From Peronospora farinosa (taxonomy: Eukaryota > Oomycota > Peronosporomycetes > Peronosporales > Peronosporaceae), in contig CANTFK010000054.1 in NCBI GenBank assembly GCA_947646735.1, positions 248,001-312,000 of the forward strand: a DNA stretch of 64,000 bases. The letters are read 5' to 3'. Both the position numbers and the translations under genes were made by a program. Under the pieces are notes generated by a model that did not search any database, had not been told where the DNA came from, and worked only from the letters and a program-made list of their open reading frames with translations. Shown piece after piece: positions 46,991-63,990 of the stretch; the first letter of the stretch is position 1; each line of letters opens with the position of its first letter.

Positions 46991-48211
46991 CGACAGGATG
47001 TCGTGAATGCAGTCATCACTCAAGATCCAAAGCATTATGGTGAAGCCATCCGAAGTGGTGATCGCCAGAAATGGACAACGGCTATGACTGAAGAGTTGGA
47101 TGCTCTGAAGTCAAACGGCGTGTGGACGGTTGTGCTACCACCAAAAGGTGCACACTCTTGCACAACAAGTGGGTCTATAAGACCAAGACTGATGCAAACC
47201 GGAACGTGGAGAGGTACAAGGCTCGCTTGGTGGTCTGTAAGTGTTTGGTGTCGATTGTACCCTCACGTTTGCTGCCGTCATGAATTTGGGAGCGGTAAAG
47301 CTGATTTTGGTGCTCTCCAGGCGTTGGAACGTGCCTGCCCGACATGGTGACGTGCCCAATGCCTACGTCAAGGCTGAAAAGGAGGAGCACCTTGACATCT
47401 ACATGTAGGTGCCCAAGGACATGGTTTTGAGTGACCAAGAGCTTAAGTCGCACGGCGTGCGAACATAAGTGACCTGGTCCTCCTGTTGAAGAAGTCACTG
47501 TACGGGCTCAAGCAGGCTGGAAGGCTCTGGAGTAAATTACTTAATTTAAAGCTACGTCAAGGTGGATTCCAGCAATGCAGCACGGATATGTGCCTGTACT
47601 ACAAGTACAAGGGTGATACGTGCACGGTGGTTGGCGTCTACGTGGACGACCTATTGGTTACAGGCACGGAACAAGGGGCCGTGGCTGAATTTTTCATGGA
47701 GATGAGCTCGCTGTCCATCAAGTACCTAGTCGTCGTCAACAAGTTTCTTGGTTTAAGAATCAATTTGAACGACGAGACAGGATACGTTCTGGACCAAGAA
47801 GTCATGATCAACCTCCTGTTGAAGGATTTTGGACTGGATTCAGCTAATGGGGTGAGGACCACAATCGGGGACGAGTGCAATGCATAAGACGAGGATACTG
47901 TGGAATGCCTTCCTGTGAAGGGTGCAAAGGGCGAGCCAAGTGTGACGTGTTCCAGTCGCTGGTTGGGAGCCTGCTGTGGATAGCAAGGTGCACGCGTCCT
48001 GATATCTGCTTTGCTGTTCACAAGGCAACTAGGCAGATACACAAGCCTACGCCAAAGGACTGAAAGATCGCAAAACGTATTGCAATATACTTGAAAATGT
48101 CAAAGGGCACCTCAATGGTGTTGGACCTACATCCAATGATGTTCGGGTCGAATGTTGGAGCGATGCCGATTTCGCTGCCGACAAGTCTGATCGCAAGTCA
48201 GTCTCCGGGTG
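46990..48211 (+). pseudogene. Copia reverse transcriptase and RNase H (broken, cut at 48211)
   Basis: RT begins near KWTTAMTEELDALKSNGVWTVV (about 47068). After several breaks the clear block KKSLYGLKQAGRLWSKLL appears at 47489 and the catalytic YVDDLLVTG at about 47638. RNase H has the block WSDADFAADKSDRKSVSG just before the end. The family B LTR interrupts it within this block. Confidence 0.9.
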
Positions 48212-48553
48212 TGTAACGGGGCTAGAACGTACCGTCACTAACTTACACGTGCGCTTGAGGAAGACTCAAGCCCAAGTATTAAGTATTAAGTAGATTTAAC
48301 TCTGATTTTTATTTTGGTTTTAATTCGTACTAATTACGAAGATTTTAGTCGTAATAAATACGACAGTGTTCCCGCCTTTCGGGAACCACACAATTTCAGG
48401 TTGATTTATCATTGGTCCATATTGGGACTTTAGGCCCCAATAATAAACCAATAATTTATTACCACGCTGTGCCCGCTATTCGGGCCCAGCACCTGCCTAC
48501 ATATGTAATTGTTTATTTGTGTTAATACTATATGTGTAATGTAGCCCATTACA
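48212..48553 (-). repeat. Family B LTR copy 1 (3' LTR of element B)
   Basis: 342 bp. On the element strand it starts TGTAATGGG and ends CCCGTTACA. It contains hairpins such as GTTCCCGCCTTTCGGGAAC and a terminal stem TGTAATGTAGCCCATTACA. The flank on the left is Copia RNase H; the right edge joins a polypurine tract (GAAGGGGGTGA on the minus strand). Confidence 0.95.
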
Positions 48554-48566
48554 TCACCCCCTTCTC

Positions 48567-49994
48567 ATGACAGCACTCACCAACCGTGAGTGCTCAACTG
48601 TCGAAAACCCTTCGCCCACAAACGAACAAGCAATGTCCGGAGACCCAACAACTAATCCAGCAGCACTCCCAAAAAACATCAGCGGGAATGCATTAACCAG
48701 CATCATGGCGCGGCAGCTCATACCTTGGTCGCTGTACGACTTGTCCGGAGCTCACGCTCCGGACTCACTGGACATGATGCGGGACTACTTCCGCCGATTT
48801 CGAAAACTGCGCGGGAAAGGTCTTGATGGAATCGAGCATGAAGCTCAACAACGTTCTTGGTGCGCCTTCATCCAACGTTGGAATCGGATGCTCGAGGATG
48901 GTAGCAGCTTCCAGTTATGGCTCGCCAATCGAGAGGAGCTTCGCGCCGATCACTCCATCGGCGCGCTACGCGAAAGGGTGTGTGAGGAAGCTTGGAATGA
49001 GGACCGTCTCTGCTTCGTCCATGTCAATGAAGGATGCCAATCTTGTGACTCGACTCCACGCCCAACTCATGACGAATGGCGACGACACATCGCTGAGTGT
49101 CCACTCAGCGATCGCGAACGAAGTTGGATTGCAAAGTATGAGCGAAGTCTGAGCGAACGGAGAAGCGCAGTTATTCGTGGTGCGCCTCGCTGGCAGCACC
49201 ACTCGCGACAGCGGAGTCACTTTCCGCGGAATAATCTGCGCAGGGCAGCGACACGTTCGCTTGTCCGTCCTGCTTCGAGATTCTCGCCTCGCAATCGTGA
49301 TATGTATTCACCGCGGCGTTCTCGTTCACGGCGTCGTTCTCGTTCGCGTCTTCGTTCCCGCTCTCGACGACGTGGACCTCCTTACCGCTCTCGTTTGTCA
49401 CGAGAGCGTTCGCGTGCTCGCCCGCCTTAGAATAGTCCGACTTCGTGGCTTCATACGACAGAACCACATCTGGAACGTCACGAAGGAGCGAGGAACGTGG
49501 TTCCCATGTATCCTGCTCGGGAGGGAATCCAAGCCAACGTACTTGGTACCTACGCACGGATGGAACCGCACGCTTCTCATGAGCCGACTGCCGTAATGGT
49601 TGTGGAGGGTCCTCGTGACCCACAATGCGGTCTAAAATCCAGCGCACCTGTCCCTCCGCATCAACAAGCGGAGGAGGGCCCTCGCGATGGTAGTGCTGGC
49701 GTCCTGGTTGCTCAGGACGATGTTGATCAGGCCGTGAACATAGCTGCCGATGCTCAGCTGGAGGCTGAGGCTGCCAGTGAACGTGCTGCCCGGGCGGAGA
49801 AGACTTCGAGTAAGAACAGACAGTCGAACCGTGAACTGCTCGAGCGGATAAGGATTCTGGAGCGCCAGATGCTTGGTCAGGTTCAGACGGGATCGAGACC
49901 CCGCCCCATGTCATCGGCGCGTCGAGCACGAAGGGAAGGCCGTTCGACTTACGAACCCCTGAAGCCGGCGTCGGAGCCAAACCGTGAAGCGTAG
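48567..49994 (+). pseudogene. Element B antisense ORF, broken by one nonsense codon
   Basis: It starts MTALTNRECSTVENPSP 13 bp from the LTR and runs 287 codons to a TAG at 49428-49430, where copies C and D have TGG. The same frame then stays open to 49994, so a single G-to-A change explains the truncation. The zinc-finger-like motif (CQSC...HIAEC) and a short RS region are present. The RS minisatellite has fewer units than in C and D. Confidence 0.85.
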
Positions 49995-52214
49995 CCGGAC
50001 GATATTCCTTCAGCCGACCGACATAGAATGTCGGGTGGAGTCGCAGTGAAGAGGGGACGTCGAGTGTATAAGCGTCGCCGATTGCCTTCAGAACCTTGAA
50101 TGGACCGATGAAGCGTGGCGCGAGTTTACTCGCGCCCAGGTTAGTGACCGTTGAATCCCTTAAACCTTCCGTAGATTATAATACACGGTCACCTTTCTCA
50201 AACTTGCTCATGTTCTTTCTGCCATGTTTGTCAGCGTTCTCCTTCTGTTGGTCTACCGCAGATTGTAGTTCGTCGCGTACAAACCGGGTGATGGCTTGAC
50301 GTTGGAGTATAAAGTCCGACACAGCCATGTCATTAATTGGTCGCGCCGACTCAATTGGCGCGTAGTTGGCAGTAGGTGAACGCTTACCCGAAGACGGGTC
50401 AATCAATGTCTGCGCAGTCCATCGAGCTAATGGGGACGCCACGTCTGATGGCGTCAAAATGGCCGTCTTTGCCTTGGATCGGGTTACTGTATTAGCGCTC
50501 AAAATACCGTGAGATGCACTCGATCCTTGTTTATCAACTTTATCCCCCCCAGAGTGGAGCCACTAGGTGTTGTGGGTCGCCCCACGACCAGGTTAGTAGG
50601 AACACGAGGGTGACGAGCCGAATTCACAAAAAATGGCGTCAACCCTGTTGACGCGTGTACGGCGTTGTTGAGTGCGAACTCAGCGAGTGGTAAAAATGCA
50701 CTCCAACTTGTAAATGACGTAGCATAACTCCGAAGAACATCTTCGAGGACCCGGTTCACGCGCTCGGTCTGCCCATCCGTTTCCGGATGGGCTGCCGTCG
50801 ACATCAGCAGTTTTGTCCCGAGGAGCTCGAAAAGTGATGTCCAAAATGCGGACGTAAATCGCGGGTCACGGTCCGAAACAATGTTTTCTGGAAGGCCATG
50901 ATGTGATGACGAAACACCGCGTCAATAAAGTGCGCCGCGGTCTTGCCGCGGTGACCTTAGCGTGAACAGGCACGAGATGTGTCATCTTGCTGTATTCATC
51001 AACAAAAACCAAGATGCCCGTTCGAGCTTGGCTATCGGGCGCAAGCCCGAAGATGAAGTCCATCGAAACGGATCTCCAGGCCTCTGCTGCAATTGGCAAC
51101 GATCGCAAAGGAGCCTGTGACGATGGTGATGGCTTCACACGCTGGCATATTTCGCACGTTCGGATCCAGTTGCGTACCCACTTATACATGTGGGTCCAGA
51201 AGAAGTCTCGAGACACAGCCGCGAAAGTCTTTTCGCGGCCTAAATGGCCGCCAGCAGGAGCATCGTGATACTCATGAATTATTCTTGCACGCAAATCCAT
51301 GTCATTGGCAATCACCGTACGAGGAGAATCGAATTGGTCGATGCTATACAGAAGCAAATCGCCGTCTTAACTGTATCGATGAATGTGGTCGCGCTTGGTT
51401 CGTGATAATGCTCCCAGTGCAGCATCGCTGGGAGCACGCAGATACTCGATAATGTCTGCATAATCTGAGTCACCCTTGTACGCTGCGACGATCTCATCAA
51501 ATAAACACGGCTCGGGTGTAACCCGAGTTAAGTTCAGCGATACACACATTGCACATCGGTCATCATCGTCCTCGTCATCAGTAGCCTGGCGACTCATGAC
51601 AGTCCGAGGATCGTAGTCGGGGCGTCGTGACAAGGCGTCAGCGAGAATATTGGTCTTGCCTGGCTTGTAATGCACGACGAAGTTGTACTCAGAGAAGAAT
51701 GAGAGTCATCGTGCCATCCGTTGGGACAGGTGTGGGCTCTTCATCGCTGTGCGCAGCGATGCATGGTCGGTGTACAAAGCAACTGTACGTTCACCAAGGA
51801 GATGCACGCACAACTTGATGAGTGCATAGCGCATCGATAATAACTCCTTGTCGTGAACCGGATAGTTGTTCTCAGCTGGCTTCATCTGTCGCGACTGATA
51901 GCTCACGACTCTTTCGCGGCCCTCATCATCAAATTGCATCCGATTGCAAAATCACTGGCGTCGCAAACCACGTAAAACACTTTAAGGCCGTCCAATAGGA
52001 TCAGCACTGGCGCTGACGCCAGGCTCTTCTTTACTGCTTCGAAGGCTGCTAGGTGCTCGGGACGCCACAACCACGTGGCGTCTTTCTTCAAGAGTGACGA
52101 CAAAGGCTGGATAGAACCAGCATAATCCTTCGTATACTTGTGTAAATAATTAGGCGTAGCGCAGGAGGACTGGAAGGTTGGGCTGCCACCGGGGGACCCG
52201 GACCTCCGTTCCAA
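49171..52214 (-). pseudogene. Element B RNase H, integrase and chromodomain (broken)
   Basis: The frame pieces from 52214 down to 49171 match the pol of C and D ([68 protein letters not shown], chromodomain VRWLGFPPEQDTWEP), but many indels and stops separate them. The reverse transcriptase is absent: the first piece begins with unrelated sequence fused to the NYLHK block. Confidence 0.9.
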
Positions 52215-52233
52215 TCAGTAGGGCGCCCTGCAC

Positions 52234-53279
52234 CTACTGGTCCCGACCGTTTTTTGGACGTGCGGCCGGTACAGCACCCTCATGATGGGCGTCCACTACT
52301 TGTACCGATATTGGGGCTGGCGCACGGCACTCTGCCGCGCGATGTCCTGGCTTGCGACAACGAAAGAAAACCATTTGACGCCCGTTGCGAGCGTCACCTT
52401 TATGAAAGACACGTCGCCGGTCACCCGACGACTCAATCACGTCAATCTCCATAGGTTCTGGACCAGAAGGCCGGGGAACGGTGACGACCGAGGGTTTGGC
52501 ATATGCCTTTGTGACCCTAAAGTCTTCACGGAGTACGATGGCAAATGCCTCCTCCAATGTGGCAGGCTCGGCGCGCTCCAGCGATAAGCGGGTCTACCCC
52601 TCACGCATACCATCCACAAAGACATTCACCTGCGTGTACATGTCCATGGGGTGCGTGATAATACATGACGCCAGATGCCTAGCCATCTGTACGTAGTCGC
52701 GCATCGCCATTTTACCCTGTCGCATCGACAGGAATCTTTATAGCACCAGTTTCTCCTCTTGCGGTGGCTAGAAAGCAAGACGAAGATCGTCCTGGATGGT
52801 ATCCAAGGTGGGGATGCGTGCTCGTCCACAACGAGCTTACCAAGGGCCCACTCCTTGGTCTTCCCGGTGAGGCGGGAAAGAAGAAAGTTGACCTTCGCCT
52901 GGGGTGCCTCAAGAAGTCTCGAGGCGATGGCGATATCAACTTCTCGGAACCACCGATTCAGCGATAACCGGTCCTTACCTTCTCCAGAGTAGGAGGAGGT
53001 TTCCATCTTCACGGCCTCATTACGTGAAGGGCGTGAGGAAGTTAAACCTCGCCGGTTGGATTCGGTGAGCTCGCGTGCCATAAACTCATGTATGGCGAGA
53101 CGTTGCGCGTCAGGGGTCGCTGATCTCATCAACGACGCGACGAATGCCTCTCCCGATATCACCGCGAGGCGATTAAGGGCATCCCACTCAACACCAGTAA
53201 GATGGGGGAAGGTCGCGTGCTCCAGAAATAAATCTGGAGCGTCAAAGTACGACGATTCGCTCATCCCAAACTCGGGCAT
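52234..53279 (-). pseudogene. Element B gag (two frames)
   Basis: The first frame (53279-52626) starts [18 protein letters not shown] and includes [20 protein letters not shown], a gag capsid-type block. The second (52557-52234) holds a zinc knuckle in which the first cysteine is replaced by Phe (FFRCRKPGHRAAEC). This is the only family B gag in the window, as that of C and D lies outside. Confidence 0.85.
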
Positions 53280-53293
53280 AGGAAGGACTACAA

Positions 53294-53303
53294 AGTGCTA
53301 CCA
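53294..53303 (-). other. Primer-binding site of element B
   Basis: On the element strand TGGTAGCACT lies two bases after the 5' LTR, the same sequence and spacing as in element A, so both families appear to use the same tRNA primer. Confidence 0.6.
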
Positions 53304-53305
53304 GG

Positions 53306-53648
53306 TGTAACGGGGCTAGAACGTACCGTCACTAGCTTACACGCGCGCTCGAGGAAGACTCAAGCCCAAGTATTAGGTATTAAGTAAATTTAACTCTGAT
53401 TTTTATTTTGGTTTTAATTCGTACTAATTACGAAGATTTTAGTCGTAATAAATACGACAGTGTTCCCGCCTTTCGGGAACCACACAATTTCAGGTTGATT
53501 TATCATTGGTCCATATTGGGGACTTTAGGCCCCAATAATAAACCAATAATAAATTACCACGCTGTGCCCGCTATTCGGGCCCAGCACCTGCCTACATATG
53601 TAATTGTTTATTTGTGTTAATACTATATGTGTAATGTAGCCCATTACA
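53306..53648 (-). repeat. Family B LTR copy 2, shared by elements B and C
   Basis: 343 bp, very similar to copies 1 and 3. On its left it abuts the PBS of B (5' LTR role) and on its right the polypurine tract of C (3' LTR role). One LTR therefore serves two internal regions. Confidence 0.95.
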
Positions 53649-53660
53649 TCACCCCTTCTC

Positions 53661-55136
53661 ATGACAGCACTCACCAACCGTGAGTGCTCAACTGTCGAAA
53701 ACCCTTCGCCCACAAACGAACAAGCAATGTCCGGAGACCCAACAACTAATCCAGCAGCACTCCCAAAAAACATCAGCGGGAATGCATTAACCAGCATCAT
53801 GGCGCGGCAGCTCATACCTTGGTCGCTGTACGACTTGTCCGGAGCTCACGCTCCGGACTCACTGGACATGATGCGGGACTACTTCCGCCGATTTCGAAAA
53901 CTGCGCGGGAAAGGTCTTGATGGAATCGAGCATGAAGCTCTACAACGTTCTTGGTGTGCCTTCATCCAACGTTGGAATCGGATGCTCGAGGATGGTAGCA
54001 GCTTCCAATTATGGCTCGCCAATCGAGAGGAGCTTCGCGCCGATCACTCCATCGGCGCGCTACGCGAAAGGGTGTGTGAGGAAGCTTGGAATGAGGACCG
54101 TCTCTGCTTCGTCCATGTCAATGAAGGATGCCAATCTTGTGACTCGACTCCACGCCCAACTCATGACGAATGGCGACGACACATCGCTGAGTGTCCACTC
54201 AGCGATCGCGAACGAAGTTGGATTGCAAAGTATGAGCGAAGTCTGAGCGAACGGAGAAGCGCAGTTATTCGTGGTGCGCCTCGCTGGCAGCACCACTCGC
54301 GACAGCGGAGTCAATCTCCGCGGAATAATCAGCGCAGGGCAGCGACACGTTCGCTTGTCCGTCCTGCTTCGCGATTCTCGCCTCGCAATCGTGATATGTA
54401 TTCACCGCGACGTTCTCGTTCACGGCGTCGTTCTCATTGGCATCGTTCTCGTTCACGGCATCGTTCTCGTTCGCGACATCGTTCTCGTTCGCGTCATCGT
54501 TCCCGTTCCCGACGACGTGAATCTCCTTACCGCTCTCGTTTGTCACGAGAGCGTTCGCGTGCTCGCCCGCCTTGGAATAGTCCGACTTCGTGGCTTCATA
54601 CGACAGAACCACATCTGGAACGTCACGAAGGAGCGAGGAACGTGGTTCCCATGTATCCTGCTCGGGAGGGAATCCAAGCCAACGTACTCGGTACCTACGC
54701 ACGGATGGAACCGCACGCTTCTCATGAGCCGACTGCAGTAATGGTTGTGGAGGGTCCTCGTGACCCACAATGCGGTCTACAATCCAGGCACCTGTCCCTC
54801 CGCATCAACAAGCGGAGGAGGGCCCTCGCGATGGTAGTGCTGGCGTCCTGGTTGCTCAGGACGATGTTGATCAGGCCGTGAACATAGCTGCCGATGCTCA
54901 GCTGGAGGCTGAGGCTGCCAGTGAACGTGCTGCCCGGGGGAGAAGACTTCGAGTGAGAACAGACAGTCGAACCGTGAACTGCTCGAGCGGATAAGGATTC
55001 TGGAGCGCCAGATGCTTGGTCAGGTTCAGACGGGATCGAGACCCCGCCCCATGTCATCGGCGCGTCGAGCACGAAGGGAAGGCCGTTCGACTTACGAACC
55101 CCTGAAGCCGGCGTCGGAGCCAAACCGTGAAGCGTA
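53661..55136 (+). pseudogene. Element C antisense ORF with C-terminal frameshift
   Basis: Opens at 53661, 12 bp from the LTR, and stays open for 406 codons to 54881. It keeps the N-terminal domain, the CQSC-x13-HIAEC motif and the longest RS repeat array of the three copies. A one-base deletion near 54787 (compare 59488 in D) throws the C-terminal coiled coil out of frame; a second deletion near 54938 is also present. The protein would keep its RS region but end in unrelated sequence. Confidence 0.85.
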
Positions 55137-58025
55137 GCCGGACGATATTCCTTCAGCCGCCCGACATAGAATGTCGGGTGGAGTCGCAGTGAAGAGGGGA
55201 CGTCGAGTGTATAAGCGTCGCCGATTGCCTTCAGAACCTTGAATGGACCGATGAAGCGTGGCGCGAGTTTACTCGCGCCCAGATTAGTGACCGCTGAATC
55301 CCTTAAACCTTCCGTAGATAATAATACACGGTCACCTTTCTCAAACTTGCTCATGTTCTTTCTGCCATGTTTGTCAGCGTTCTCCTTCTGTTGGTCTACC
55401 GCAGATTGTAGTGCGTCGCGTACAAACCGGGTGATGGCTTGACGTTGGAGTATAAATTCCGACACAGCCATGTCATCAATTGGTCGCGCCGACTCAATCG
55501 GCGCGTAGTTGGCAGTAGGTGAACGCTTACCCGAAGACGGGTCAATCAATGTCTGCGCAGTCCATCGAGCTAATGGGGACGCCACGTCTGATGGCGTCAA
55601 AGTAGCCGTCTTTGCCTTGGATCGGGTTACTGCATTCGCGCTCAAAATACCGTGAGCTGCACTCGATCCTTGTTTATCACCTTTATTCCCCCCCAGAGTG
55701 GAGCCACTAGGTGTTGTGGGTCGCCCCACGGCCAGGAGAGTAGGAACACGAGGGTGACGAGCCGAATTCACAAAAAATGGCGTCAACCCTGTTGACGCGT
55801 GTACGGCGTTGTTGAGTGCGAACTCAGCGAGTGGTAAAAATGCACTCCAACTTGTAAATGACGTAGCATAACTTCGAAGAACGTCTTCGAGGACCCGGTT
55901 CACGCGCTCGGTCTGCCCATCCGTTTCCGGATGGGCCGCAGTCGACATCAGCAGTTTTGTCCCGAGGAGCTCGAAAAGTGACGTCCAAAATGCGGACGTA
56001 AATCGCGGGTCACGGTCCGAAACAATGTTTTCTGGAAGGCCATGATGACGGAACACCGCGTCGATGAAGTGCGCCGCGGTCTCTGCCGCGGTGACCTTAG
56101 CGTGAACAGGCACGAGATGTGTCATCTTGCTGAATCTGTCAACAAAAACCAAGATGCCCGTTCGAGCTTGGCTATCGGGCGCAAGCCCGAAGATAAAGTC
56201 CATCGAAACTGATCTCCAGGCCTCTGCTGCAATTGGCAACGATCGCAAGGGAGCCTGTGACGATGGAGATGGCTTCACACGCTGGCATATTTCGCACGTT
56301 CGGATCCAGTTGCGTACCCACTTATACATGTGGGGCCAGAAGAAGTCTCGAGACACAGCCGCGAAAGTCTTTTCGCGGCCTAAATGGCCGCCAGCAGGAG
56401 CATCGTGATACTCGTGAATGATTCTTGCACGCAAATCCATGTCATTGGCAATCACCGTGCGAGGAGCATCGAATTGGTCGATGCTATACAGAAGCAAATC
56501 GCCGTCTAAACTGTATCGATGAATGTGGTCGCGCTTGGTTCGGGATAATGCTCCCAGTGCAGCATCGCTGGGAGCACGCAGATACTCGATAATGTCTGCA
56601 TAATCTGAATCACCCTTGTACGCTGCGACGATCTCATCAAATAAACACGGCTCGGGTGTAACCCGAGTTAAGTTCAGCGATACACACATTGCACATCGGT
56701 CATCATCGTCCTCGTCATCAGTAGCCTGACGACTCAGAGCAGTCCGAGGATCGTAGTCGGGACGTCGTGACAAGGCGTCAGCGAGAATATTGGTCTTGCC
56801 TGGCTTGTAATGCACGACGAAGTTGTACTCAGAGAAGAATGAGAGCCATCGTGCCATCCGTTGGGACAGGTGTGGGCTCTTCATCGCTGTGCGCAGCGAT
56901 GCATGATCGGTGTACAAAGCAAATGTACGTTCACCAAGGAGATGCACGCGAAACTTGATGAGTGCATAGCGCATCGCTAATAACTCCTTGTCGTGAACCG
57001 GATAGTTCTTCTCAGCTGGCTTCATCTGTCGCGACTGATAACTCACGACTCGTTCACGGCCCTCATCATCAAATTGCATGAGGGCACAACCGATTGCAAA
57101 ATCACTGGCGTCGCAAACCACGTGGAACGGCTTGGAATCGTCTGGTAGGACCAGGACTGGCGCTGACGCCAGGCTCTTCTTTACTGCTTCGAAGGCTGCT
57201 TGGTGCTCGGGACGCCACAACCACGTGGCGTCTTTCTTCAAGAGTGACGACAAAGGCTGGATAGAACCAGCATAATCCTTCGTATACTTGTGCAAATAAT
57301 TAGCCAAGCCGAGCCACTGGCGCAACTCCGTAGGGTTCTTGGGCGTGGGCCAAGAACAGATGGAACGACACCTTCTCTGGATCAGCTCGAACTCCCGATT
57401 TACTCACATAGCAACCTAACACCGGAATCTCCGGTGCACAAAAGACACACTTCTTGAGATTCGCGTACAACTTGTTGTCCCGCATAACTTGAAACACTTG
57501 CTTCAGGTGTTGAAGGTGGACTTGGACATCGTTGAGGTTGCCCTCGGCGCGACTATGGACGAAGATATCGTCAAAATAACTTGGGGCAAAGTTCCGAAGA
57601 GGTCTCAACACTTGAGACACCATGCGATTGAAAGTGGCCGGAGCGTTCTTCAACCCTTGTGGCATTACCAGCCACTCCCATAACATGCCACTCGGGGTGC
57701 TTACCGCGGTGAGTGGGATATCGCTCGGGCGCATCAAAATCTGGTAAAAGCCATCGGTCAAGTCGATGGCACTGAAGATGACACTTCCTGACATGGAATT
57801 CAGCACCATGTCCTTCCTGGGAATTGGCGTTTGCGCAGGAATAGCGGCATCATTCAGCTTATTGAACGCATGCACTATCCGCCAGCCTCCCGTAGCCTTC
57901 TTCACGCAGAAGGTTGGACTCGAATGTGGTGAGATACTCTCCCGCACATGACCCGCTTTGCGGCGGCCTTCGAAGAATGCGTCAATAGTTCGACTTGATC
58001 TCGAGGCAACGGCCACTGCCGTGTC
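54265..58025 (-). pseudogene. Element C pol (RT, RNase H, integrase, chromodomain)
   Basis: An 867-codon open frame (57325-54722) covers RNase H and integrase (HHCC zinc motif HEYHDAP...CEICQRVKP; catalytic core with FVDRFSKMTH, SDRDPRF and [13 protein letters not shown]) and the GPF/chromodomain linker. RT lies in another frame to the right (ending at 57300), with YFDD in [14 protein letters not shown], separated by a one-base insertion near 57363. The chromodomain and the Asn/Glu/Asp repeat tail are in the frame 54768-54265. The RT reading is cut at 58025 by the LTR of D. Confidence 0.9.
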
Positions 58026-58365
58026 TGTAACGGGGCTAGAACGTACCGTCACTAGCTTACACGTGCGCTTGAGGAAGACTCAAGCCCAAGTATTAGGTAT
58101 TAAGTAAATTTAACTCTGATTTTTATTTTGGTTTTAATTCGTACTAATTACGAAGATTTTAGTCGTAATAAATACGACAGTGTTCCCGCCTTTCGGGAAC
58201 CACACAATTTCAGGTTAATTTATCATTGGTCCATATTGGGGACTTTAGGCCCAATAATAAACCAATAATAAATTACCACGCTGTGCCCGCTATTCGGGCC
58301 CAGCACCTGCCTACATATGTAATTGTTTATTTGTATTAACTATGTGTGTAATGTAGCCCATTACA
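58026..58365 (-). repeat. Family B LTR copy 3 (3' LTR of element D)
   Basis: 340 bp, near-identical to the other two copies with a few small indels. Same TGTAAT...GTTACA ends on the element strand. Confidence 0.95.
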
Positions 58366-58378
58366 TCACCCCCTTCTC

Positions 58379-59842
58379 ATGACAGCGCTCACCAACCGTG
58401 AGTGCTCAACTGTCGAAAACCCTTCGCCCACAAACGAACAAGCAATGTCCGGAGACCCAACACCCAATCCAGCAGCACTCCCAAGCACCATCAGCGGGAG
58501 TGCATCAACCAGCATCATGGCGCGGCAGCTCATACCTTGGTCGCTGTACGACTTGTCCGGAGCTCACGCTCCGGACTCACTGGACATGATGCGGGACTAC
58601 TTCCGCCGATTTCGAAAACTGCGCGGGAAAGGTCTTGATGGAATCGAGCATGAAGCTCTACAACGTTCTTGGTGTGCCTTCATCCAACGTTGGAATCGGA
58701 TGCTCGAGGATGGTAGCAGCTTCCAATTATGGCTCGCCAATCGAGAGGAGCTTCGCGCCGATCACTCCATCGGCGCGCTACGCGAAAGAGTGTGTGAGGA
58801 TGCTTGGAATGAGGACCGTCTCTGCTTCGTCCATGTCAATGAAGGATGCCAATCTTGTGACTCGACTCCACGCCCAACTCATGACGAATGGCGACGACAC
58901 ATCGCTGAGTGTCCACTCAGCGATCGCGAACGAAGTTGGATTGCAAAGTATGAGCGAAGTCTGAGCGAACGGAGAAGCGCAGTTATTCGTGGTGCGCCTC
59001 GCTGGCAGCACCACTCGCGACAGCGGAGTCAATCTCCGCGGGATCATCAGCGCAGGGCAGCGACACGTTCGCTTGCCCGTCCTGCTGCGCGATTCTCGCC
59101 TCGCAATCGTGATATGTATTCACCGCGACGTTCTCGTTCACGGCATCGTTCTCGTTCACGGCATCGTTCTTGTTCACGACATCGTTCTCGTTCGCGTCAT
59201 CGTTCCCGTTCCCGACGACGTGAATCTCCTTACCGCTCTCGTTTGTCACGAGAGCGTTCGCGTGCTCGCCCGCCTTGGAATAGTCCGACTTCGTGGCTTC
59301 ATACGACAGAACCACATCTGGAACGTCACGAAGGAGCGAGGAACGTGGTTCCCATGTATCCTGCTCGGGAGGGAATCCAAGCCAACGTACTCGGTACCTA
59401 CGCACGGATGGAACCGCGCGCTTCTCATGAGCCGACTGCAGTACTGGTTGTGGAGGGTCCTCGTGACCCACAATGCGGTCTACAATCCAGCGCACCTGTC
59501 CCTCCGCATCAACAAGCGGAGGAGGGCTCTCGCGATGGTAGTGCTGGCGTCCTGGTTGCTCAGGACGATGTTGATCAGGCCGTGAACATAGCTGCCGATG
59601 CTCGGCTGGAGGCTGAGGCTGCCAGTGAACGTGCTGCCCGGGCGGAGAAGACTTCGAGTGAGACCCGGCAGTCGAACCGTGAACTGCTCGAGCGGATAAG
59701 GATTCTGGAGCGCCAGGTGCTTGGTCAGGTTCAGACGGGATCGAGACCCCGCCCCATGTCATCGGCGCGTCGAGCACGACGGGAAGGCCGTTCGACTTAC
59801 GAACCCCTGAAGCCGGCGTCGGAGCCAAACCGTGAAGCGTAG
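58379..59842 (+). CDS. Antisense gene of element D: zinc-finger-like, RS-rich, coiled-coil protein (intact, 487 aa)
   Basis: Opposite to pol, an intact 487-codon ORF starts 13 bp after the LTR edge. Residues 1-200 form a dedicated domain not overlapped by pol, with a helical part (MMRDYFRRFRKLRGKGLDG, RSWCAFIQRWNRML) and a motif C157-x2-C160-x13-H174-x3-C178 that fits a C2HC zinc finger. Residues about 200-300 are Arg/Ser-rich with RSRSRH repeats, like SR splicing proteins or a nuclear/RNA-binding region. A linker follows, then a coiled coil at about 415-460 (EAEAASERAARAEK, RELLERIRILERQVLG). From 58983 on it overlaps the pol C-terminus on the other strand. Transcription could start in the 3' LTR. 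Function is unknown; a regulator or RNA-handling accessory protein is inference. The two other copies keep most of this frame, which supports a real gene. Confidence 0.75.
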   Translation: MTALTNRECSTVENPSPTNEQAMSGDPTPNPAALPSTISGSASTSIMARQLIPWSLYDLSGAHAPDSLDMMRDYFRRFRKLRGKGLDGIEHEALQRSWCAFIQRWNRMLEDGSSFQLWLANREELRADHSIGALRERVCEDAWNEDRLCFVHVNEGCQSCDSTPRPTHDEWRRHIAECPLSDRERSWIAKYERSLSERRSAVIRGAPRWQHHSRQRSQSPRDHQRRAATRSLARPAARFSPRNRDMYSPRRSRSRHRSRSRHRSCSRHRSRSRHRSRSRRRESPYRSRLSRERSRARPPWNSPTSWLHTTEPHLERHEGARNVVPMYPAREGIQANVLGTYARMEPRASHEPTAVLVVEGPRDPQCGLQSSAPVPPHQQAEEGSRDGSAGVLVAQDDVDQAVNIAADARLEAEAASERAARAEKTSSETRQSNRELLERIRILERQVLGQVQTGSRPRPMSSARRARREGRSTYEPLKPASEPNREA

Positions 59843-62800
59843 CCGGACGATATTCCTTCAGCCGCCCGACATAGAATGTCGGGTGGAGTCGCAGTGAAGA
59901 GGGGACGTCGAGTGTATAAGCGTCGCCGATTGCCTTCAGAACCTTGAATGGACCGATGAAGCGTGGCGCGAGTTTACTCGCGCCCAGATTAGTGACCGCA
60001 GAATCCCTTAAACCTTCCGTAGATAATAATACACGGTCACCTTTCTCAAACTTGCTCATGTTCTTTCTGCCATGTTTGTCAGCGTTCTCCTTCTGTTGGT
60101 CTACCGCAGATTGTAGTGCGTCGCGTACAAACCGGGTGATGGCTTGACGTTGGAGTATAAATTCCGACACAGCCATGTCATCAATTGGTCGCGCCGACTC
60201 AATCGGCGCGTAGTTGGCAGTAGGTGAACGCTTACCCGAAGACGGGTCAATCAATGTCTGCGCAGTCCATCGAGCTAATGGGGACGCCACGTCTGATGGC
60301 GTCAAAGTAGCCGTCTTTGCCTTGGATCGGGTTACTGCATTCGCGCTCAAAATACCGTGAGCTGCACTCGATCCTTGTTTATCACCTTTATCCCCCCCCA
60401 GAGTGGAGCCACTAGGTGTTGTGGGTCGCCCCACGGCCAGGACAGTAGGAACACGAGGGTGACGAGCCGAATTCACAAAAAATGGCGTCAACCCTGTTGA
60501 CGCGTGTACGGCGTTGTTGAGTGCGAACTCAGCGAGTGGTAAAAATGCACTCCAACTTGTAAATGACGTAGCATAACTCCGAAGAACAGTCTTCGAGGAC
60601 CCGGTTCACGCGCTCGGTCTGCCCATCCGTTTCCGGATGGGCCGCAGTCGACATCAGCAGTTTTGTCCCGAGGAGCTCGAAAAGTGACGTCCAAAATGCG
60701 GACGTAAATCGCGGGTCACGGTCCGAAACAATGTTTTCTGGAAGGCCATGATGACGGAACACCGCGTCGATGAAGTGCGCCGCGGTCTCTGCCGCGGTGA
60801 CCTTAGCGTGAACAGGCACGAGATGTGTCATCTTGCTGAATCTGTCAACAAAAACCAAGATGCCCGTTCGAGCTTGGCTATCGGGCGCAAGCCCGAAGAT
60901 AAAGTCCATCGAAACTGATCTCCAGGCCTCTGCTGCAATTGGCAACGATCGCAAGGGAGCCTGTGACGATGGAGATGGCTTCACACGCTGGCATATTTCG
61001 CACGTTCGGATCCAGTTGCGTACCCACTTATACATGTGGGGCCAGAAGAAGTCTCGAGACACAGCCGCGAAAGTCTTTTCGCGGCCTAAATGGCCGCCAG
61101 CAGGAGCATCGTGATACTCGTGAATGATTCTTGCACGCAAATCCATGTCATTGGCAATCACCGTGCGAGGAGCATCGAATTGGTCGATGCTATACAGAAG
61201 CAAATCGCCGTCTAAACTGTATCGATGAATGTGGTCGCGCTTGGTTCGGGATAATGCTCCCAGTGCAGCATCGCTGGGAGCACGCAGATACTCGATAATG
61301 TCTGCATAATCTGAGTCACCCTTGTACGCTGCGACGATCTCATCAAATAAACACGGCTCGGGTGTAACCCGAGTTAAGTTCAGCGATACACACATTGCAC
61401 ATCGGTCATCATCGTCCTCGTCATCAGTAGCCTGGCGACTCAGAGCAGTCCGAGGATCGTAGTCGGGACGTCGTGACAAGGCGTCAGCGAGAATATTGGT
61501 CTTGCCTGGCTTGTAATGCACGACGAAGTTGTACTCAGAGAAGAATGAGAGCCATCGTGCCATCCGTTGGGACAGGTGTGGGCTCTTCATCGCTGTGCGC
61601 AGCGATGCATGATCGGTGTACAAAGCAAACTGTACGTTCACCAAGGAGATGCACGCGAAACTTGATGAGTGCATAGCGCATCGCTAATAACTCCTTGTCG
61701 TGAACCGGATAGTTCTTCTCAGCTGGCTTCATCTGTCGCGACTGATAACTCACGACTCGTTCACGGCCCTCATCATCAAATTGCATGAGGGCACAACCGA
61801 TTGCAAAATCACTGGCGTCGCAAACCACGTGGAACGGCTTGGAATCGTCTGGTAGGACCAGGACTGGCGCTGACGCCAGGCTCTTCTTTACTGCTTCGAA
61901 GGCTGCTTGGTGCTCGGGACGCCACAACCACGTGGCGTCTTTCTTCAAGAGTGACGACAAAGGCTGGATAGAACCAGCATAATCCTTCGTATACTTGTGC
62001 AAATAATTAGCCAAGCCGAGCCACTGGCGCAACTCCGTAGGGTTCTTGGGCGTGGGCCAAGAACAGATGGACGACACCTTCTCTGGATCAGCTCGAACTC
62101 CCGATTTACTCACATAGCAACCTAACACCGGAATCTCCGGTGCACAAAAGACACACTTCTTGAGATTCGCGTACAACTTGTTGTCCCGCATAACTTGAAA
62201 CACTTGCTTCAGGTGTTGAAGGTGAACTTGGACATCGTTGAGGTTGCCCTCGGCGCGACTATGGACGAAAATATCGTCAAAATAACTTGGAGCAAAGTTC
62301 CGAAGAGGTCTCAACACTTGAGACACCATGCGATTGAAAGTGGCCGGAGCGTTCTTCAACCCTTGTGGCATTACCAGCCACTCCCATAACATGCCACTCG
62401 GGGTGCTCACCGCGGTGAGTGGGATATCGCTCGGGCGCATCAAAATCTGGTAAAAGCCATCGGTCAAGTCGATGGCACTGAAGATGACACTTCCTGACAT
62501 GGAATTCAGCACCATGTCCTTCCTGGGAATTGGCGTTTGCGCAGGAATAGTGGCATCATTCAACTTATTGAACGCATGCACTATCCGCCAGCCTCCCGTA
62601 GCCTTCTTCACGCAGAAGGTTGGACTCGAATGTGGTGAGATACTCTCACGCACATGACCCGCTTTGCGGCGGCCTTCGAAGAATGCGTCAATAGCTTCGA
62701 CTTGATCTCGAGGCAACGGCCACTGCCGTGTCACACAATACTTCGACCCTGGCACGAGATCAATCTCGTGCCGAACACCGCGGTCCGCAGGAAGTTCAGC

Positions 62801-63253
62801 CGGGATCTTGTCCGGGAACACGTCTGCATACTCACGAGCAATGTCGTAGACGGGGTTACCAGACTCTCGCAGAGCCTCCCATGACTGTGATGCAAACCTT
62901 TCTTCACGCGCAGACTTCGGCTCAGCGCTTCGAGGACGCGCCATATGCTCCTCGTTTGCCACGGTAACCACCTCGTTGGTGATTAGACACACTTGTTCCA
63001 CAGTGCCTTCCTTAAGGTCACGTAGGAAATGCTTCCAGGAAAGCCCTGGAAGACTTGTAATGGAAGACGCATTACGAGGAGGACTCTCGACCTCGATATA
63101 TTGGCGCCTTTGTGGACTCCCTTCCACGTACACGATAGCGTGGACACATTCCAACGCTATATTCTCGGTGCTGTTGTCCCCATCGTGCTTCGAGTCACTA
63201 CTCGAAGCTGGCGAACCGCAGTCAGGTGATAAACCATCACCCCCTCTAGGCAC
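58983..63253 (-). pseudogene. Element D pol (RT, RNase H, integrase, chromodomain), two frame breaks
   Basis: The frame 63253-61535 carries the pre-RT region, RT ([26 protein letters not shown]..., [19 protein letters not shown], catalytic [14 protein letters not shown]) and RNase H. After a one-base insertion near 61628 the frame 61674-60529 carries the end of RNase H and integrase (HEYHDAPAGGHLGREKTF...[50 protein letters not shown]). After another near 60589 the frame 60491-58983 carries the integrase tail (LAPRFIGPFKVLKAIGDAY, HPTFYVGRLKEY), the chromodomain (LVDAEGQVRWIVDRIVGHE...RYRVRWLGFPPEQDTWEP) and the acidic repeat tail. Element C is intact at both break points, so the breaks are recent or sequencing errors. 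Confidence 0.92.
59100..59230. repeat. 18-bp minisatellite read on both strands
   Basis: Tandem 18-bp units encode RSRSRH on the plus strand (antisense gene) and an Asn-Glu-Asn-Asp-Ala-Val type repeat on the minus strand (tail of pol). Copy number differs between elements in whole units (compare 54405-54515 and 49315-49375), so both frames are kept. Confidence 0.9.
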
Positions 63254-63990
63254 TGGATGTCGTCATCCAAGATGCCGGAAACACTGGACGGGAGTACCCC
63301 AAACTCGACCGTCGACACTTGATGCGGGAGCTCCTGCTCGGCTGCCGTAAACCCGTGTGGGAGCCCCTGCTCAACCACAGTATGCCCATGTGGGAACCTC
63401 GGTTCGGCCACAGTGGGTGATGATGGGAACCCCGGTTCGACCATCATGCTCTCGCGTGGGGACTCCTGTCCGCCCACGTTGTACTCGTGTGAGAGCCCCT
63501 GCTCGACCACAATATGCCCATGTGGGAACCTCGGTTCGACCACAGTGGGTGATGATGGGAACCCCGGTTCGACCATCATGCTCTCGCGTGGGGACTCCTG
63601 TCCGTCCACGTCACACTCGCTGGCGAGCTCTTGCTCGTCGTCACAATGCCCTTGTGGGAGCCCCTGCTCGACCACAATAGGTGCAGATGGGAACCCCGGT
63701 TCAACCACTGCATTCACGTGCGGGAACCCCTGTTCAACCGCATTAATGACGCGCGGGAACCCCTGTTCGACCGCGTCGTCCTCGTCGTCCTCTTCGCTCT
63801 GTAGCGAGGAGTCACTGTCACTTGTGTCTCGAAGAACAGCACAAGCAGTGCAGAGAGGGCCATCGCTCGCTCTGTGCACCGCCAACGTCGTGGAATCACG
63901 ATCCACGACTGTGACGTTCGGCCAGTCACTTGGAGATACCAAGAGATGGGTAAACACTTCACTGACATCGAACTTGCGTTGACGTCTCAC
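63157..63990 (-). CDS. Element D pre-RT repetitive linker, continues past window end
   Basis: A 277-codon frame reaching almost to the window edge. It encodes an acidic stretch (EEDDEDD) and then repeated modules such as [20 protein letters not shown] and VVEQGLPHG, with a 132-bp higher-order repeat (for example 63381 and 63513). It overlaps the RT frame around 63157-63253 with a frame change near a five-G run. By position it corresponds to the linker between protease and RT in element A; the protease itself must lie outside the window. Confidence 0.75.

Follow-up and report, generated by a model that had tools for sequence, protein, structure and literature searches.

The window, that is, the whole 64,000-nt stretch of the Peronospora farinosa genome analysed here (contig CANTFK010000054.1, positions 248,001–312,000), contains several copies of one Ty3/Gypsy element on its minus strand. 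In one of these, copy D, pol is broken and spread over three frames: domain matches place the reverse transcriptase (RT) and RNase H at 61,535–63,253 and the integrase at 60,529–61,674, each in a separate frame, followed by a C-terminal frame at 58,983–60,491 that was delimited from the ORF list and domain matches. In its direction of reading, this last frame contains an SH3_Tf2-1 domain (59,847–60,041), a linker (59,487–59,846), a chromodomain (59,298–59,486; Pfam PF00385) and an acidic tail (58,986–59,297). The 3′ LTR of copy D, read from the sequence and also on the minus strand, spans 340 bp (58,026–58,365) and is bounded by TG...CA in the sense direction.

An ORF on the plus strand (58,379–59,842), identified from the ORF list, from genome matches and from the selection tests described below, starts next to this LTR and runs into the end of pol. 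As described by an initial reading made from the sequence only, it is intact in copy D over 487 codons (487 aa), and its ATG lies close to the 3′ LTR, at a distance of 13 bp. These 13 bp (58,366–58,378) are purine-rich in the sense direction of the element (minus strand), resembling a polypurine tract, which we take to be their role. The ORF extends 604 bp past the end of pol at 58,983, close to the 600 bp first estimated, and overlaps pol by 860 bp, for a total of 1,464 bp; its stop codon ends 4 bp before the SH3 domain (59,847). In the overlap, antisense third positions lie opposite pol second positions and antisense second positions opposite pol third positions. The same antisense start was found, as had been reported, in three copies of the family (at 48,567, 53,661 and 58,379), and alignment to copy D confirmed how the two sister copies are damaged. 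Copy B (48,567–49,994, plus strand) has one nonsense change, a TAG at codon 300 (49,428–49,430), together with a 36-bp deletion, and copy C (53,661–54,881, plus strand) is shortened by two one-base deletions and carries a 15-bp insertion.

Copies B, C and D follow one another head to tail, with one LTR separating each from the next (48,205–58,365). The LTR of D directly adjoins the start of the RT region of copy C, which therefore appears to lack gag and protease, and the arrangement looks like a truncated tandem array. Upstream of the gag gene of copy D (L094:2021–2696) there are two LTR copies almost in tandem and a short repeat of the U3 edge, and behind its protease (63,326–63,787) there are internal 132-bp repeats, spaced by 33 and 99 bp, that encode acidic repeats of the VVEPGFP type.

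Predicted architecture of the antisense product

In the AF2 model of the whole protein, a helical part is predicted with confidence and a coiled coil spans residues 395–453, and the pLDDT is below 50 for most of the middle; when modelled alone, the domain (aa 43–208) reached a mean pLDDT of 83.9 and a pTM of 0.71. These predictions suggest a helical N-terminal domain (codons 45–201; 58,511–58,981), with no pol opposite, followed by an RS-rich, low-confidence and probably disordered middle (codons 203–345; 58,985–59,413) and by a C-terminal coiled coil with a short tail (codons 394–487; 59,558–59,839), opposite the pol linker. The RS-rich stretch and the coiled coil had been proposed by the initial reading and are supported, the coiled coil as a prediction; RS/SR dipeptides, however, were more frequent than in every one of 200 shuffles for only 8 of the 20 proteins. 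Among the homologues, the best conserved residues of the domain include W105 (23/23), S130 (28/28), C139 and C149 (26/27 each). The zinc motif C-x2-C-x13-H-x3-C of that reading did not withstand comparison: C157 and C160 are present in 22 and 25 of 27 proteins, whereas H174 is found in 15 of 26 and C178 in only 5 of 26. Pfam searches with 33 members of the family did not detect the RRM of SR proteins nor, at E ≤ 0.1, a dsRNA-binding domain or a bZIP.

Openness of the antisense frame

The window has many long ORFs that face other ORFs, and the antisense frame might owe its openness to chance, through the codon usage of pol and the base composition. The overlap, however, has no stops in the antisense frame, against a mean of 6.5 in synonymous-codon shuffles of pol (n = 2000), so that the comparison with codon-shuffled pol proposed at the outset came out in favour of a gene. 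Synonymous shuffling closed the overlap in 1999 of the 2000 trials and left it open in one, and none of 2000 shuffles of pol codon order left it open. The 201 non-overlap codons stayed open in 46 of 20,000 first-order Markov sequences, and each of the other five frames of this part contains 3 to 11 stops. The three reverse frames in copy D are closed by 4 to 7 stops.

Selection on the antisense protein

The ORF matches at least 88 places in the genome (46.85 Mb; 89 rows, with one place represented twice), a count that is a lower bound with 88 of 905 candidates scored. Eighty copies, most of them from these places, were aligned; of the 80, 17 retain an ORF of at least 470 aa, 54 have a shorter ORF, seven lack the ATG and two are fragments; the ATG is kept in 72 of 79. 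Changes were counted by parsimony on a FastTree tree, excluding the branches at the root and the branch of L088, a divergent relative from the same genome with 73.8 % DNA identity that is itself decayed, with two TAG codons and no ATG at this place. For the tests by segment, all changes were used and null positions were drawn among sites with the same base.

Constraint was clearest in two segments. On internal branches, codons 45–201 had an ω of 0.34, with 48 silent changes against 25.7 expected (0/1000 simulations), and the other two forward frames of the same segment gave 2.70 and 2.31; codons 394–487 had an ω of 0.48–0.49, with 49 silent changes against 30.8 expected (0/1000 simulations). 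On terminal branches the pattern was similar but weaker (0.62 and 0.83, respectively). The RS region (codons 203–345) appeared to be under little constraint (internal ω of 0.85), and no constraint was seen for codons 346–393 (1.43) or for codons 1–44 (58,379–58,510; 1.47), the latter with an excess of amino-acid changes, which may reflect relaxed selection, diversifying selection or an effect of the alignment. The first window of the antisense gene also shows an excess of second-position changes. Codon positions gave a picture similar to that of ω: in the two windows that comprise most of the domain (58,562–58,927), 11, 12 and 46 internal changes fell on antisense positions 1, 2 and 3, comparable to the 14, 9 and 51 at pol positions 1, 2 and 3 in a positive control made with part of the pol-only region (21 sequences). 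A spectrum-matched test over the whole non-overlap part, for which 98 of 156 changes were usable, gave a weak signal (internal P = 0.035), because codons 1–44 are unconstrained.

A second comparison was made with L088. Nei-Gojobori estimates of ω were 0.18 for codons 45–201 (dS 0.90, dN 0.16) and 0.23 for the whole non-overlap part, so that dN/dS, the check suggested by the initial reading, is not near 1 either here or, for codons 45–201, on internal branches. One reverse control frame also yielded a low value (0.36), which is explained by wobble positions that it shares with the antisense frame. Several close pairs ranged from 0.4 to 0.8 (0.42 for L083, 0.76 for L087, 0.83 for L090), as young, mostly neutral differences would give.

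Insertions and deletions were counted over copies, so that shared events are counted repeatedly. Lengths divisible by three made up 94 of the 101 events in the RS part (58,982–59,413), but 2 of the 90 at the LTR edge, 3 of the 23 within the domain and 2 of the 23 between 59,414 and 59,839. The scarcity of in-frame events outside the RS part is as expected where broken copies accumulate.

These results also bear on the possibility that the RNA itself is the functional product, exerting antisense control, and that the frame is kept passively. Non-coding antisense transcripts are described for other elements, such as micropia, in parts of a review (PMC7264820), but the frame-specific excess of silent changes and the bias among codon positions speak against it, and we regard this explanation as very improbable. 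It is practically certain, in our judgement, that the antisense ORF is a real protein-coding gene under purifying selection, and the original proposal, that a Ty3/Gypsy family carries a conserved protein-coding gene in antisense at its 3′ end, is supported.

Division of the overlap between the two strands

Within the overlap, the strand that is constrained changes along the sequence. The part of the linker facing antisense codons 394–487 (59,558–59,839) is well supported as being held by the antisense gene: ω on internal branches was 0.48–0.49 in the antisense frame (0/2000 simulations) but 1.54 in pol, and against L088 the values were 0.39 and 0.81, respectively. The chromodomain (59,298–59,486) is held mainly by pol, as judged from terminal branches (0.68 for pol, P = 0.0025; 1.10 for the antisense frame) and from L088 (0.30 for pol, 1.41 for antisense), though the 40 changes on internal branches do not separate the frames (0.67 for pol, P = 0.116; 0.73 for antisense). 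In the acidic tail, pol and antisense values were similar on internal branches (0.77 and 0.83) and were 0.95 and 0.68 against L088. The RS stretch is thus placed opposite a loosely held acidic tail, and the coiled coil opposite an unconstrained pol linker.

The same tendency was apparent among proteins from other elements. In six of eight antisense-pol partner pairs, which were formed from like elements, not always of one species, and two of which share the pol protein P0054, the pol linker was 27–44 % identical to that of the window, whereas the antisense C-terminal end was 49–77 % identical. The exceptions are the pair P0001-P0034, with 92 % identity in the linker and 77 % in the antisense protein, whose members probably derive from different elements, and the pair P0019-P0120, with 32 % in the linker and 40 % in the antisense protein, over 25 residues.

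Further arguments against a chance opening of the antisense frame are the linker, whose conservation is in the antisense frame but not in that of pol, an ω of 0.18–0.34 where no pol lies opposite, and homologues in three genera (see below). We consider chance hardly credible as an explanation and, in our view, it is refuted by the excess of silent changes in 58,511–58,981.

Homologues in other species and a fixed phase

A protein search retrieved 19 homologues, and 33 when the alignment was used as query. Wherever a species is given, it belongs to Phytophthora, Peronospora or Hyaloperonospora; the annotations are hypothetical, unnamed or uncharacterised protein. The best pol protein match, with 92 % identity, is to P. 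farinosa. In L088, from the same genome, pol and antisense homologues also occur on opposed strands.

To see whether a single stretch of DNA could specify an antisense protein and a pol protein at once, we paired the 19 antisense homologues that reach 280 aa with the last 450 residues of 120 listed pol proteins out of 213 matches; the other 14 homologues, both those from Hyaloperonospora among them, are shorter. As a control, copy D scored 555 bits over 284 residues in its true phase and 20 and 15 bits in the other two. A partner with at least 60 bits in the phase of the window was found among the 120 pol proteins for 17 of the 19 antisense proteins, over up to 222 residues, and with shuffled antisense proteins the maximum was 28.0 bits, with none of 2280 pairs reaching 40. 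Examples are P0010 with P0039 (both from P. rubi, 222 residues), P0009 with P0051 (both from P. idaei, 217 residues), P0006 from P. capsici with P0054 from P. lilii (203 residues), P0002 with P0036 (Peronospora matthiolae, 154 residues), and P0004 from P. matthiolae with P0034 from P. farinosa (126 bits). P0012 and P0018, with best scores of 39.5 and 58.0, had no partner at 60 bits among these 120 pol proteins. A partner was found for 28 of the 120 pol proteins, the other 92 being uninformative on the presence of an antisense gene. Three oomycete pol proteins with linkers of around 180–200 residues (P0071, P0076 and P0088) had no antisense partner at 60 bits.

Pairs with at least 60 bits, among the 2280, numbered 180 in the phase of the window, 56 in phase 0 and three in phase 2. 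Of the 56 phase-0 pairs, 36 include P0015 or P0017, two sequences that pass into a different frame midway, and the remaining 20 fall on five pol models (P0049 with seven, P0050 with six, P0037 and P0042 with three each, and P0066 with one); P0049 and P0050 match at their very C-terminal ends, beyond the expected pol stop. The three phase-2 pairs are all on P0036. The phase-0 pairs probably stem from gene models joined across frames. By these protein comparisons, the antisense gene faces the C-terminal end of pol in elements of both the Peronospora and the Phytophthora type, and the phase is the same in both. Its occurrence in three genera and the way in which constraint passes from one strand to the other along the overlap go beyond what had been noted from the window.

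Putative transcription and role

The 13 bp between the LTR and the antisense start codon leave no room for a promoter, and the mRNA would therefore start in the LTR or beyond it. Judging by this geometry, as opposed to promoter evidence, the LTR, as the expected site of any antisense promoter, probably contains the start of the transcript. The half of the LTR on the internal side is 79–82 % identical to L088, and for the other half blastn gave no match in L088, a distribution that would suit transcription in either direction. Around 58,225–58,270, letters resembling CCAAT occur in the LTR in either orientation, which might point to a promoter active in both directions.

Since fold searches gave no match at E ≤ 0.001, with no family match standing out, any assignment of function is drawn from the architecture of the product. 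From the RS stretch and the coiled coil we infer a nuclear, self-associating, RNA-related protein. Its mRNA would start in the 3′ LTR and run into pol, and the protein would oligomerise through the coiled coil, enter the nucleus through the RS stretch, and bind the RNA of the element or its integration complex; this binding would control expression, export or integration of the element, in the manner of Rev- or HBZ-like accessory proteins. We see about even chances that the ORF is a functional accessory gene of the chromodomain Ty3/Gypsy lineage of the Peronosporales with a role of this nuclear, RNA-related type. That the product acts specifically as a nuclear RNA-related regulator, by analogy with such proteins, is a tentative proposal to which we give somewhat less than even weight.

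An assembly protein that binds nucleic acids would be a suitable bearer of the domain, the RS stretch and the coiled coil as well. The product might accordingly be a structural or assembly factor, acting in the particle, as a nucleic-acid chaperone or in the nuclear import of the integration complex, instead of a regulator of expression; nuclear import is raised for plant antisense ORFs in parts of the review cited above (PMC7264820). We find such a factor unlikely, given that the Gag of copy D already has a zinc-knuckle-like stretch, degenerate and read by eye, and that an antisense promoter would provide no coupling to Gag-Pol output. A third role would be that of a shield from RNA silencing, with the protein as a silencing suppressor or dsRNA binder. 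The two mRNAs would overlap by about 860 bases (58,983–59,842), which would allow dsRNA to arise wherever they are produced together; parts of the same review (PMC7264820) mention antisense transcripts as a possible source of siRNAs. The 33 members, however, lack a recognisable Pfam dsRNA-binding domain at the threshold given above, and we consider a shield of this type decidedly improbable.

Returning to a nuclear regulator, the broadest reading combines it with the history of the gene. The antisense proteins of these retrotransposons would form a protein family not described before, at least as old as the split between Phytophthora and the downy mildews if inheritance was vertical, double-coded with the integrase-chromodomain end of pol in such a way that the domain on each strand lies opposite dispensable sequence on the other; the product would be an independently evolved nuclear regulator of the Rev/HBZ type whose mRNA pairs with that of pol. 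We offer this synthesis as possible, short of an even chance.

Comparison with known systems

A layout comparable to that of antisense ORFs in plant elements and of retroviral antisense genes had been suggested by the initial reading, and the comparison holds. In plant Ty3/Gypsy elements, the antisense ORFs between pol and the 3′ LTR, designated aORF-3R, are described for Grande, RIRE2, Retand (TRP28, PF04195) and PvRetro13 in the parts of PMC7264820 and PMC11963269 consulted, and antisense TRP28 ORFs occur in 97 % of Retand clusters (PMC11963269, in part). On these accounts, the plant ORFs resemble the oomycete ORF in being antisense, in adjoining the 3′ LTR, in being present in most copies and in their conservation across species. 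The antisense ORFs of PvRetro13 and some of those of Retand have Smc-type matches (excerpts of PMC7264820 and PMC11963269), which suggests coiled coils in these proteins too. Besides the host group, plants there and an oomycete here, a difference lies in the position: Retand ORFs are situated in a POL-3′LTR region of 2.9–6.6 kb (same excerpts), whereas 604 of the 1,464 bp of the oomycete ORF lie between pol and the LTR and the other 860 bp overlap pol, as also occurs in relatives by the protein compatibility test. TRP28 (PF04195) had no match in the 33 members (E ≤ 0.1) and none in the genome (E ≤ 10). The oomycete ORF is a variant that overlaps pol, and no relationship with the TRP28 ORFs of plants was detected.

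In fungi, the brtn gene of the Boty elements of Botrytis cinerea is an additional antisense gene (Zhao 2011; PMC7264820 and PMC8365987, in part). As described in those parts, it is likewise antisense, at the 3′ end of a Ty3/Gypsy element and in a filamentous plant pathogen; brtn is fungal, and its comparison with the oomycete ORF is by description, not by sequence.

Antisense genes are known in retroviruses as well, ASP of HIV-1 being one of them. The LTR-driven genes HBZ of HTLV-1 and APH-2 of HTLV-2 (PMC10186651, in part) share with the oomycete ORF the antisense orientation and an expected start in the 3′ LTR, and the C-terminal end of HBZ also forms a coiled coil, as part of a bZIP. The oomycete protein differs from HBZ, again in a comparison by description and not by sequence, in having no bZIP match and in its overlap with pol.

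Among oomycetes, Chronos and other Ty3/Gypsy elements, some with chromodomains, have been surveyed (PMC5348765, in part). Chronos is similar to the present element in having a chromodomain, here PF00385, behind the integrase, and is described in that part as having a second RNase H of archaeal/plant type; the scanned frames of copies C and D matched only Gypsy-type RNase H models, the pol of copy D being broken. The main text of PMC5348765 does not contain the word "antisense", and a literature search over titles and the starts of abstracts, which is no proof of absence, found no antisense ORF of an oomycete element. The kind of gene is known, from plants and fungi; what appears to be new, within that search, is the family of proteins, the group of hosts and the way in which the overlap is shared out with pol.

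Antisense accessory genes of LTR retrotransposons were earlier reported from plants and from fungi of the Botrytis type, without an assigned function. In the element described here, coding is demonstrated by frame-specific selection, and the overlap with pol presents two opposed genes that divide one DNA stretch between them. The phenomenon is thereby extended to oomycetes, with a protein architecture that can be tested, and a set of hypothetical proteins of Phytophthora and downy mildews can be recognised as transposon-borne and not as host genes.
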